In this document: positions 40,274 through 44,525 of the stretch, one piece after another | Layout: the number at the start of each line of letters is the position of its first letter | Numbering within the stretch: position 1 is the first letter of the stretch | IMG/VR virus record: IMGVR_UViG_3300031673_000092 | Coordinates: 1 to 47,600 of that record | From: a virus | Strand: one strand, 5' to 3' | Length of the DNA stretch: 47,600 nucleotides | Program-made: the position numbers and the translations under genes | The notes under the pieces: model-generated | What the model was told of the DNA's origin: nothing | Databases searched by the model: none | Seen by the model: only the letters and a program-made list of their open reading frames with translations

Positions 40274-40492
40274 ATGATGCACACAAAACCCGTAATCCTT
40301 TGGCACCCGACGCCCGACGACCCGTTTGACGACGTCATGCCCGAAGCGGCCGAGGCGCCCCCTCGAGGATACGAGACGGTCGAGGAAGATGCTGACGTCG
40401 TTGACCGCTACGAGGCGCAGCAGTTCATCCTGAGCATTTTCCAGTTTTACGACACCGCCTGGCCCGTCGAGCGTGAACCGCTCGCAGCGTAG
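40274..40492 (+). CDS. small acidic protein
   Basis: 72 residues from ATG 40274 (a second ATG follows at once); GAGG precedes it. Acidic/Pro-rich (HPTPDDPFDDVMPEAAEAPP, EEDADVVDRYEAQQ), with a helix FILSIFQFYD. It overlaps the upstream leader of the nuclease gene, ending 29 bp before it. No function known. Confidence 0.55.
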   Translation: MMHTKPVILWHPTPDDPFDDVMPEAAEAPPRGYETVEEDADVVDRYEAQQFILSIFQFYDTAWPVEREPLAA

Positions 40493-40520
40493 CTTCTATC
40501 CTCTGCAGGAGGTCCCCGGC

Positions 40521-41243
40521 ATGAGCGTCACGGCGGCAATCATTGACTCCCGAGAGCCCGAGTGGGTGCAAAAACTCGCCTTTGGGGGCGCCGTGACCGC
40601 CGCCTCGATGCTCGAGGCCGGGGACCTGTTGCTGACCTGTGATGACGGTACCCTCTTGGTCATTGAGCGCAAGACGCCCTCGGATCTGCTCAACTCGATC
40701 CGCGATGATCGGCTATGGACGCAACTCGCGGGCATCCGCGCAGTCAGCCGATGGTCATATCTGATAATCACTGGCGAGCTGTTGCGATCACAGAGCGGCC
40801 AAGTGGTCATCAATCGCGGTGAAACCGGTTGGGCCTGGACCGCAATCCAGGGCGCGTTGCTACAGGTGCAGGAGATGGGCGTGTTCGTGGCGTACTGCGC
40901 AGGAGATGATGACTATGAGGCTGCGGTCGTGCGGCTATCGGCGCGCAGTCACCGGCAGGAGATGCTAATACCCCCCGCGCGTGACCCCCGAGCCCTGAGC
41001 GATACTGAACGGATTCTGACGGCCCTGCCCGGGGTTGGTTTGGAGCGCGTGCAGGCGTTGACGGAGTATGCTGGCAGCGCGGCGTGGGCCATCCAGTATC
41101 TCACCGATCTAGAGATTAACGACAAAGTGCCCGGAATCGGCAACGGCGTCAAGGCGACGGTTCGCCGCAGCCTCGGGCTCAAAGAGAACCAAAGCATGGC
41201 CGTGATCGTGAGTGAGAGCGGCCACCTGGCAGAGAAAGAGTAG
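40521..41243 (+). CDS. XPF/ERCC4-type structure-specific nuclease
   Basis: 240 residues; ATG 40521 after AGGAGG. The nuclease domain (1-150) has the ERCC4 motifs: DSRE at 9-12, then ERKTPSDL with E49-R50-K51. A helix-hairpin-helix pair follows (ILTALPGVGLERVQALTEYA, VPGIGNGVKATVRRSLG, about 160-225). This is the XPF/Mus81 family layout, which cuts branched DNA. Placed before RecT and Cas4-like genes, it probably trims recombination intermediates or blocks. Confidence 0.88.
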   Translation: MSVTAAIIDSREPEWVQKLAFGGAVTAASMLEAGDLLLTCDDGTLLVIERKTPSDLLNSIRDDRLWTQLAGIRAVSRWSYLIITGELLRSQSGQVVINRGETGWAWTAIQGALLQVQEMGVFVAYCAGDDDYEAAVVRLSARSHRQEMLIPPARDPRALSDTERILTALPGVGLERVQALTEYAGSAAWAIQYLTDLEINDKVPGIGNGVKATVRRSLGLKENQSMAVIVSESGHLAEKE

Positions 41244-41250
41244 GTAGGAA

Positions 41251-42078
41251 ATGGGAACACAGGAGGATCGAGCACTGACGGTTGTGAATCGCCCGCAACT
41301 CACACTCTCCATTTGGGAGATGATCGAGCGCATTGCGCCCGCGATGTACCTGGCGCGACTGTTTGGCGTCAGCAGTAAAGAGCAAGCCATGGCGGTCATG
41401 CTCAAAGGGTTTGAGATGGGCATGGGGCTCGCCGCCAGCTTTGAGTACATTCACATTGTCGAGGGGAAGCCATCACTTTCGCCTCGGGGGGCATTGGCGA
41501 TGATCCATAGCTCCCCATTGAATGCCGGGATCAAGATCGAGAACCTGACGGATGGCAACGGCAAGCCGAGCGGTTGCCGAGTGTGGATGAAACGTGCCGA
41601 TACTGGGTTTGAGCACACCATCACTTGGACAATAGAGGATGCCGAGCGCGCCAATCTCATTACCAAAGCAGGCACAACGCGTGCAGATGGCACGGTGAGA
41701 GGCATTGGGAACTGGGAGAAATGGCCTGCCAATCTGTGCCGGTGGCGGGCAGTTGGTTTTTGCGCCGACGTGGTATTCCCTGAGGTGGGTGGCGGCATGA
41801 AGCGCGCGGATGAGTACGGCGCCGATCTGACACCCGATGGCGACGTGATCGAGGGCTCCTGGCGGGTTGCCCCTGAGCTGCAACTGCCGCCTACGAGTGG
41901 GGCGCCGGTGGTTGCCGAGACGCCCGTTGCGCCCCCGCAGGTCAAGGGCCCTACGCTCGATGACCTCATGCAGCAGTATAGCGCCGAGGCCATCATCGTG
42001 GCGAATGAGGGCAAAATCCCCGGTACGGATGCGGAGTTGGCCGCCGTGGCCGAGAAACTGGCGGTGCAAAATGGGTGA
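41251..42078 (+). CDS. recT: RecT-family single-strand annealing protein
   Basis: 275 residues. Family pattern: IWEMIERIAPAMYLARLFGV, SKEQAMAVMLKGFEMGMGL, AASFEYIHIVEGKPSLSPRGALAMIHSS, then CRVWMKRADTGFEHTITWTIEDAERANL and NLCRWRAVGFCADVVFPEVGGGMKRADEYG. RecT proteins anneal single strands made by a partner exonuclease, here probably the RecB-like nuclease at 42516. The C-terminal part is a Pro/Ala linker and a short helix. Confidence 0.9.
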   Translation: MGTQEDRALTVVNRPQLTLSIWEMIERIAPAMYLARLFGVSSKEQAMAVMLKGFEMGMGLAASFEYIHIVEGKPSLSPRGALAMIHSSPLNAGIKIENLTDGNGKPSGCRVWMKRADTGFEHTITWTIEDAERANLITKAGTTRADGTVRGIGNWEKWPANLCRWRAVGFCADVVFPEVGGGMKRADEYGADLTPDGDVIEGSWRVAPELQLPPTSGAPVVAETPVAPPQVKGPTLDDLMQQYSAEAIIVANEGKIPGTDAELAAVAEKLAVQNG

Positions 42079-42523
42079 GGATAAGGTGATCATCATCAGT
42101 AAGGCGAGCCCCATCGGCCCTGATCAGGGCATACCCGACACGTGCATTGAGATCATCGGCACGCTGCCTGACATGGCCGATCTGGAGAAGGCCGGATGGT
42201 ACTACGATCAGCAGGCACAGGAAATCGAGGAGGCGCTGTACAGATCATTACCGGGCGGCACGTATGACCGATTGGTCGGGCGCCTGCTGGCCCGTAAGGC
42301 CACCCACTTTCGTGTTCCGCATTTCAATAACGATGGAGAGAAGACGGCTACCGAACTAAGCCGGAATCTCATTATTGCCGCACCCGAATTGTTAGCCGCC
42401 TGTGAGGCGGCGATGGCCTTTCTGGAGGATATCTGGCAGGAAGGCGTCACCAATCCCTCCCTCGGGGATCAGTTGAAGGCCGCTATCGCCAAAGCGCGCG
42501 GTCAGGATGTGATCAATGGCTGA
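42071..42523 (+). CDS. hypothetical protein between RecT and nuclease genes
   Basis: 150 residues; ATG 42071 inside the RecT end. N-terminal strands (IIIISKASPIGPDQGI, CIEIIGTLPDMADLEKAGWYYD), helices, and an end APELLAACEAAMAFLEDIW...LKAAIAKARGQ common in phage accessory proteins. It overlaps the nuclease gene by 8 bases. Its role in recombination is only suggested by place. Confidence 0.6.
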   Translation: MGEDKVIIISKASPIGPDQGIPDTCIEIIGTLPDMADLEKAGWYYDQQAQEIEEALYRSLPGGTYDRLVGRLLARKATHFRVPHFNNDGEKTATELSRNLIIAAPELLAACEAAMAFLEDIWQEGVTNPSLGDQLKAAIAKARGQDVING

Positions 42524-43295
42524 CATCACCCACCTGTCGTACTCCAGCCTCAACCACTATTTGCTGTGTGGGCACTCATGGCGGCTCCACTACATCGAGA
42601 AAGTGCCCGTGCCCACGGCCCCGGCGCTGATCGTGGGCAGCGCGTTCCATGACATGGCGGAAAGTTACATCAAGAGTGGCGAAAGCCTGGAGGCGTTGTG
42701 GAAACAGGCTTTCGACAGGCAGCTTGAACGTAACCCCGAAATTGGGGGTGCCACGACCATCGACCCTGAGGCTTCGGCCTTGGCCATGTTTGAGGACGGC
42801 CTGCGGATGGTGCGCGCCCAGCCCGTCCAGGCGCTCTTGGCTGAGATCCGTGCGAACTTTGACCCCGAGCAGGGTGCCATCGAGAAGCGCGTTGAGTTGC
42901 GGGTGCCGGGGGTACCGATCCCCATCGTTGGCTACATCGACATTATCACCCGCGATGGGATACCTGGCGACTTCAAGACGTCCGCCAAGATGTGGTCGGA
43001 TGGCAAGGCCGACGGCGATCTGCAACCGCTGTTCTACCTCGCGGCGCTCAACCAGGAGGGGATTCATCCTGCAGAGGGCGCGTTCTGGTACTACATTTTT
43101 ACCAAGACCGCGCGGCCAGATGCCAAGATGCTCCCGGTCAAGCACAAGCCCACTGAGTTTTTCTGGTTGTTCGCGCTGATTGCCGCTGCCTGGCGCGGGA
43201 TCGAGGCGCAGGTTTATCCTATGAACCCTACGGGGTGGAAGTGCGACAAACGCTACTGCGACTATTTCCCCATGTGTCGAGGCAAGTACGCCTAA
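42516..43295 (+). CDS. RecB/Cas4-like PD-(D/E)XK exonuclease with Fe-S cysteines
   Basis: 259 residues. Helical start LSYSSLNHYLLCGHSWR with a first Cys (C18-type), GSAFHDMAESY (about 42-52), GYIDIITRD (Asp about 142), GDFKTS (Asp152, Lys154), then QPLFYLAAL (QxxxY motif), and C-terminal CDKRYCDYFPMC. One N-terminal and three C-terminal cysteines are those that bind the 4Fe-4S cluster in Cas4/AddB. This fits a RecT-partner exonuclease. It stands next to a RAMP-like gene, and Cas4-type proteins also serve in CRISPR systems, though here no spacers exist. Confidence 0.87.
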   Translation: MADITHLSYSSLNHYLLCGHSWRLHYIEKVPVPTAPALIVGSAFHDMAESYIKSGESLEALWKQAFDRQLERNPEIGGATTIDPEASALAMFEDGLRMVRAQPVQALLAEIRANFDPEQGAIEKRVELRVPGVPIPIVGYIDIITRDGIPGDFKTSAKMWSDGKADGDLQPLFYLAALNQEGIHPAEGAFWYYIFTKTARPDAKMLPVKHKPTEFFWLFALIAAAWRGIEAQVYPMNPTGWKCDKRYCDYFPMCRGKYA

Positions 43296-43321: not shown

Positions 43322-43915
43322 ATGGACAAGTATCACGTTACCCTGACCTTCACAGAACCACTGCTGGGCACGGCGCCTCTCAACAAGGAATTGTACGGCG
43401 ACTACATCGCTACCAAGGCCCCCGAAGGCAGCGTTACCAGTGACGAGCTGGAGAGTGTCGAGGAATTGACAGAGAAAGGCACCACCGGCTTTCACCGCAT
43501 CGATGATGGCTCTCCGATCCTCTATGACTACATGCTCAAAGGATTCTTCAAAGACGCCTGCGGCATGTTGGCGCGGGCATCTGAGTCGAGCAGCTCTAAG
43601 GTGCGCGCTTACAGGAAGATCATTGATGGCCTGGTGTTCGTGACGCCGCGGCGAATCCCCATCAGTATGAATGGGGGCGCCATTGCCATCTTGGAACGTC
43701 CTCTACGTGCGCAGACCGCTCAAGGCGAGCGCGTCGCTCTGGCCCGTTCCGAGATGATCCCGGAGGGGGCAAGCATCGCGTTTAATCTGCTGATCCTCGG
43801 ACAGGTAACGGAAACCCTGCTGCGTGAGTGGCTGGAGTACGGCGCGCTCCGTGGTCTCGGTCAGTGGCGAAATGGGAGTTATGGCCGGTTCGCCTATGAG
43901 TTGAGCCGAGTATAG
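43322..43915 (+). CDS. RAMP-like (Cas7/Csm3-resembling) phage protein
   Basis: 197 residues; ATG 43322 behind AGGAG. It opens YHVTLTFTEPLLGTAP (strand, Gly turn). Residues about 65-80, PILYDYMLKGFFKDAC, resemble the RAMP PIPGSSLKGxLR segment, and 178-190, GLGQWRNGSYGRF, resemble the C-terminal Gly-rich GGxRSRGYGR loop of Csm3/Cmr4-type proteins. I recall homologues in unrelated phages but know no function. It closes the recombination operon and is followed at once by a GC-periodic tract. The RAMP link is inference from motif order. Confidence 0.7.
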   Translation: MDKYHVTLTFTEPLLGTAPLNKELYGDYIATKAPEGSVTSDELESVEELTEKGTTGFHRIDDGSPILYDYMLKGFFKDACGMLARASESSSSKVRAYRKIIDGLVFVTPRRIPISMNGGAIAILERPLRAQTAQGERVALARSEMIPEGASIAFNLLILGQVTETLLREWLEYGALRGLGQWRNGSYGRFAYELSRV

Positions 43916-44130
43916 CAAGGCAGGGCACTAGCACGTATGGCAAGGCTGCTGCACAGCCCCGCAAGGCAGGGCAGGGCAAAAGCAGCGCACAGAAGCGCGT
44001 TGCCGCGCGGGGTTGTGCCAAGCGCAGCACAGCAAGAGCGCGGCGAAGCCTGGTAGCGCGCGGCGCGGCAAGAGCAACGCACCGCCAAGCACAGCAAAAG
44101 CGAGGCCCAGCGACGCGAGGCGCGGAGCAG
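43916..44130 (+). repeat. five-base-periodic GC tract after the RAMP-like gene
   Basis: No gene is supported here. From the stop codon on, GC recurs about every five bases: GCAAG-GCAGG-GCACT, later GCAAG-GCAGG-GCAGG-GCAAA, then a degenerating run with AGCAC and GCGCG units to about 44130. The G-rich strand is the coding strand. Leftward open frames over it are Ala/Arg/Leu-rich artefacts of the periodicity. Confidence 0.75.
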
Positions 44131-44149
44131 ATGTACGAATAGGCCATTC

Positions 44150-44204
44150 CCGCCCGCGACGCGCTGCAACCGCGGATCGGGGCAGTCCCTGATTAGGCGG
44201 GCGG
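44150..44204 (+). ncRNA. GC-rich stem-loop after the periodic tract
   Basis: CCGCCCGC (44150-44157) pairs with GCGGGCGG (44197-44204), 8 bp, closing 39 nt with an internal CCGCGG. With the next hairpin it makes a structured 115-nt region. Confidence 0.45.
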
Positions 44205-44212
44205 TGACGGCG

Positions 44213-44265
44213 CCGAGAGCCGGTCGGTTTCTAATCTAAAAGATGCGGGGCTGGCCGGCTCTCGG
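44213..44265 (+). ncRNA. 11-bp perfect hairpin before gene at 44286
   Basis: CCGAGAGCCGG (44213-44223) is exactly complementary to CCGGCTCTCGG (44255-44265) around a 31-nt AT-richer loop. No T-run follows; ribosome site GAGGGAG is 8 nt beyond. It could be an RNA processing or translational control element. Confidence 0.6.
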
Positions 44266-44285
44266 TTCTCATAGAGGGAGACACC

Positions 44286-44525
44286 ATGCAAGGCCAACAG
44301 ATTAAAGTCGGCGACCTGATTTTCAAGACCGTTAGCATTAGTCGGCAGCGAGAGAAAGGCGTCCCCATGGCGTTGCGTGTGACCGGGGTGGAGGGCTTTG
44401 GGGAGGGCGCGACGGTAATCGGCGACGTCGAGCGACAAGGGGATTCACCATACCCCGCGGGCCTGCGGGGATTCATCGGCATTGCGATGATGTTCGATGG
44501 GCATGAGGGGGAGGGCCAAACATGA
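44286..44525 (+). CDS. small hypothetical protein
   Basis: 79 residues, ribosome site GAGGGAG. Beta-rich: MQGQQIKVGDLIFKTVSISR, then ALRVTGVEGFGEGATVIGDVE. No cysteines or membrane segments. ATGA overlap with the next gene. Function unknown. Confidence 0.6.
   Translation: MQGQQIKVGDLIFKTVSISRQREKGVPMALRVTGVEGFGEGATVIGDVERQGDSPYPAGLRGFIGIAMMFDGHEGEGQT

Follow-up and report, generated by a model that had tools for sequence, protein, structure and literature searches.

A punctuated five-nucleotide array beside a RAMP-like phage gene points to a probable VIPR-type RNA-guided system

We found, in a 47,600-nt stretch of viral DNA (the window; positions 1 to 47,600 of IMG/VR record IMGVR_UViG_3300031673_000092), a small RAMP-like gene followed directly by a punctuated array of 5-nt units. 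Judged from sequence and by analogy, the pair very probably represents a phage RNA-guided DNA-binding system of the VIPR type, consisting of the RAMP gene and its guide array. A literature search for such a system returned one paper, a 2026 preprint that describes VIPR (Viral Interference Programmable Repeat) with experiments (PMC13142463; doi 10.64898/2026.04.26.720920). According to the preprint, VIPR combines a RAMP protein with vrRNAs built of 5-nt GGY/NN repeats, which pair with DNA in a gapped manner; seven types are described, the systems include SUSP1 and P. fulva type II, and other types are mentioned as having related consensus sequences and arrays that are staggered and overlap (PMC13142463). 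The features of the window are listed in Table 1.

Table 1. Features of the RAMP gene and array locus in the window
Feature	Position	Strand	Evidence
P0001 (197 aa), a Vipr-like RAMP gene; glycine-rich C-terminal loop RGLGQWRNGSYGRF	43322..43915	+	family alignment, AlphaFold, Foldseek, profile comparison, PHROG
vrRNA-like array of about 40 five-nt units, GC(R)NN/N	43915..44124	+	autocorrelation z 6.5; unit parse score 65 (codon-shuffled loci, 16 or less)
Array segment with 6-nt punctuation units GCAAAA (43976), GCAAGA (44032), GCAAGA (44068) and GCAAAA (44094)	43976..44099	+	unit parse; family-wide composition of 6-nt units
Strong hairpin, stem about 20 bp, between the array and the next gene	44211..44266	+	RNA fold of 44119-44300, z -4.25

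The initial annotation had noticed that GC recurs about every five bases at 43916-44130 and had proposed autocorrelation against shuffled sequence as a check. The rhythm proved to be real: 27 GC-GC pairs at distance 5 were counted, against 10.0 expected from dinucleotide shuffles (z 6.5; equalled in 0 of 2000), with additional autocorrelation peaks at 10, 20, 26 and 31. Nearby intergenic DNA had been said to be free of the pattern, and among all 215-nt windows across the 47.6 kb the top one, with 28 pairs, lies here, while the runner-up reaches only 11. The array starts on the last base of the RAMP-like gene, the G of its TAG stop codon, and its 5-nt period is incompatible with any conserved reading frame. 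The drift in phase noted towards the end of the tract arises because the 6-nt units (GCAAAA, GCAAGA) each insert one extra base, and the same units account for the peaks at 26 and 31. Tandem Repeats Finder missed the tract, as three of the bases in each unit vary. The predicted RNA fold of the tract itself was nothing unusual (z -0.3). The hairpin, about 85 nt 3′ of the array end, is a candidate transcript end. Intrinsic-terminator-like hairpins with a T run are present at the array end in several relatives (L010, L022, L178 and L206); when the 130-nt stretches 3′ of 43 arrays were folded, 10 gave a z below -2, with no common structure by eye.

A Pfam search with the window protein gave no match. 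An alignment of 29 relatives (A1) served as input for an AlphaFold model of P0001 (pLDDT 84.6), for which the best solved structures in Foldseek were type VII Cas7 (E 4e-10) and, next, Csm3-like RAMPs. By sequence, the family profile matched Csm4 (E 0.003) and type VII Cas7 (E 0.008), and weak matches of Cas7 and Csm4 models were found in PADLOC and NCBIfam. The SUSP1 Vipr, which we took to be ALH47069.1 (L157:28474-29061) from its size, position and weak similarity, matched the family profile with an E value of 7e-4 over 173 columns, that is, over its whole length, at an hhalign probability of only 26%; G-x-G-x-W-R ... GRF recurs in both as a C-terminal motif. phrog_4652 includes SUSP1 Vipr (1.4e-96) and is the sole PHROG matched, weakly (E 0.0097), by the window protein; the window family is a distant branch. 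Taken together, the model and the profiles identify P0001 as a RAMP/Cas7-fold protein and mark it, remotely but consistently, as a homologue of SUSP1 Vipr.

A search of the viral collection with the window protein gave 35 relatives, 9 came from bacterial assemblies, and a family profile search of the viral collection gave 156 related stretches, of which 80 were kept. The window and most family loci are IMG/VR virus records, 9 being in bacterial assemblies. In most relatives, the tract lies immediately 3′ or immediately 5′ of the RAMP gene. With a strong array defined by a strict score of 25 (the maximum in codon-shuffled loci was 16) and a cut-off of 300 nt from the gene, 69 of 91 non-redundant loci carry one, 45 downstream, 28 upstream and 4 on both sides; homologues in other phages thus do have such tracts beside them, as the initial annotation had stated. 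The remaining 22 loci lack a strong array at this distance when counted strictly; in a few of them, an array overlaps the gene end. Contigs of 39 family phages (1.58 Mb in total) were also covered, with positions compared by hand, and there all strong arrays lie beside the RAMP gene, at no more than about 0.7 kb. The arrays are long and continuous, with a median of 467 nt. Gene and array stay together in diverse phages while the array sequences turn over.

Some loci depart from this arrangement. In L020, L024, L025 and L034-L036, no array is present on either side of the family gene within the stretch examined, and their guides may be located elsewhere or lost. An Atopobiaceae assembly (L166:11380-12070) holds a second array of 686 nt, about 4.7 kb 3′ of the Vipr-like gene and with no adjoining family gene, which may be a guide locus in its own right or the partner of another gene. 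When the P0001 profile was searched near canonical arrays (see below), only two weak matches were obtained (E about 0.1), L049:3-422 and L077:6393-7085, each about 10 nt from GCNNN-pattern arrays; these are perhaps divergent Vipr genes.

The unit had been described as a uniform GCNNN. Across the family GC does recur every five bases, but purines are favoured at position 3 and the tract is punctuated by 6-nt units. In 5,936 five-nt units, position 1 is G at a frequency of 0.94 and position 2 is C at 0.73; position 3 is A at 0.46 and G at 0.28; position 4 is near uniform; and position 5 is A at 0.35, G at 0.27, T at 0.21 and C at 0.17. The 1,228 six-nt units of the family are mostly GCAANG and are usually separated by 4-7 five-nt units (one every 26-36 bases). 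In orthologous arrays, changes at positions 1-3 are almost all transitions (60 of 65), while those at positions 4-5 are frequently transversions (20 of 50). A blind scan of the viral collection for GCNNN runs revealed canonical GGCNN-form arrays in 98 of 120 loci. In these, 95% of units have G at position 5, positions 3-4 are variable (GGC-NN), and because of this the family arrays read as the canonical frame with its first G relaxed; the base before GC is G in 27% of family units versus 95% in canonical-type arrays.

The window family shares with VIPR the features that define it broadly: a small phage RAMP with a G-loop, apparently homologous to Vipr; an array in the intergenic DNA flanking the gene, on either side, whose 5-nt units combine fixed with variable bases; and an occurrence mainly in phages and proviruses. 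It differs from the SUSP1 type in several respects. The family unit is GC(R)NN/N rather than GGYNN, the first G of GGY not being conserved; a 6-nt GCAANG unit follows every 4-7 units; the arrays are continuous, whereas the SUSP1 type has separate vrRNAs of about 100 nt with a conserved tail; and a search of the family loci for an accessory gene (vap) or any other conserved neighbour found none, whereas in the SUSP1 type vap lies beside vipr. The GGY/NN consensus and vap, which mark VIPR type II, are thus both missing from the family, and its form may already be among the seven types of the preprint. With CRISPR type VII and the Cas7 (Csm3) of type III the likeness lies in the protein fold and, by analogy, in one subunit for each short fixed length of RNA. 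In contrast to class 1 CRISPR-Cas, the family loci show no CRISPR repeats (the array is one of 5-nt units, not of repeats and spacers), no conserved cas genes or operon, and a period of 5 nt versus 6 nt.

Could the tract instead act as DNA, as a site of phage recombination or packaging, for example for the loading of a RecT-like annealing protein? RecT-like protomers cover about 5 nt, and directly upstream of the RAMP gene in the window (40473-43295) are genes for an ERCC4-domain nuclease with HhH, a RecT-like annealing protein and a PD-(D/E)XK exonuclease. Across the family, however, these genes are not conserved neighbours: the RAMP gene alone is present in 92 of 92 loci, the next being SSB in 16, and RAMP-adjoining arrays without any annealing protein are the usual case within the stretches examined. 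The array, moreover, can precede or follow the RAMP gene, and its sequence is variable. We therefore regard this explanation, which in its recombination form the initial annotation had listed as an option and which finds no support in the company that the tract keeps, as very improbable. Still less probable is a functionless repeat, whether selfish or born of slippage. Duplicated words do occur inside the arrays of L002, L004 and L189, but the scaffold positions are conserved while the variable positions change, phase and 6-nt punctuation are kept in distant phages, and the location is strictly beside one gene. The suggestion that the tract is a target written or copied by the system gains no support either, since no copying enzyme is conserved beside it. 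Among the roles proposed for the tract, the sequence evidence points to that of an RNA to which the adjacent RAMP-like protein would bind.

How a VIPR-type array of this kind would be read was approached through target searches. Nine reading rules applied to 3.46 Mb of DNA gave no excess over shuffled arrays, except for two strong step-5 matches, which we took, uninspected, for unmasked array sequence because the step-5 rule spaces bases like the array itself. The decoded L166 array, compared with 140 relatives of its host, gave chance-level results. In scans of the viral collection with five decoded words, three words had no match at all, two of them read at positions 4-5, a frame that we consider less likely. 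One 9-unit word, from L004, was read at positions 3-4 with a single skipped base and matched in 8 contigs, always in the same homologous tail-protein gene (L318:5833-5858 and homologues L319-L325; a gapped 18-of-18 match in a gene for a J-like tail protein). Every skipped base falls on a codon third position, with positions 3-4 on codon positions 1-2, as the preprint reports for type II (PMC13142463). These contigs being homologous, the matches count as one event, about one chance match is expected per scan by our estimate, and one third of chance matches would fall in this codon phase.

A variant of the same system, which we consider rather unlikely, is a triplet code in which all three variable bases are read against a contiguous target with no skip, the first G of GGY having become variable. 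Neighbour statistics at positions 3-4 and 4-5 resemble those of a genome, and the base at position 5 is tied to that at position 3 in the following unit, across two fixed bases (z 9.1 for all units; 3.5 for strict units). The same statistics, however, failed to recover the known 1-nt skip in canonical arrays, our positive control, so that the test lacks power. Read as contiguous triplets, a word common to the related arrays of L195, L198, L200, L204 and L205 has two exact 18-nt matches in the viral collection. Each is located 40-50 nt upstream of a phage gene, one of unknown function (L316:2371-2388) and one capsid-like (L317:9085-9102). One of the two matched records is numbered next to the records of the L195 group. 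About one chance match of this 18-mer is expected by our estimate of the collection size, and second words of the same arrays did not match the candidate target contigs. The eight L004-word matches, for their part, ignore position 5 and therefore favour a skip. Distinctly unlikely, in our estimation, is the extended form of the triplet reading, in which the array is a continuous text of unskipped three-base words with GCAANG standing between guides of 4-7 units; were it true, a single intergenic transcript would hold a dozen or more programmable guides. Candidate targets thus exist under both a gapped and a contiguous reading, but their matches are near chance, none convincingly above it, and no second word matches the same contigs.

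For the preferred reading, a VIPR-type system, we infer transcription, RNA binding, DNA targeting and action against rivals by analogy from the VIPR preprint. The array would be transcribed on the same strand as the RAMP gene, and Vipr subunits would line up on its RNA, one to each 5-nt unit, and hold it at the fixed positions. The variable bases of successive units (positions 3-4, perhaps 5) would then pair with the double-stranded DNA of a competitor, at about three target bases per unit, and this pairing would block transcription of the competitor. The GCAANG units are probably the border between one guide and the next, and one array would yield many short, possibly overlapping guides.

In summary, our analysis would extend a newly reported guide system, related to CRISPR, to a large family of phages, represented by the 156 related stretches in the viral collection. 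Their arrays are longer, bear punctuation and, so far, show no tail. Should the punctuation mark the limits of guides, each locus would encode many of them, and one small protein with one RNA would suffice for a direct test of the reading rule.
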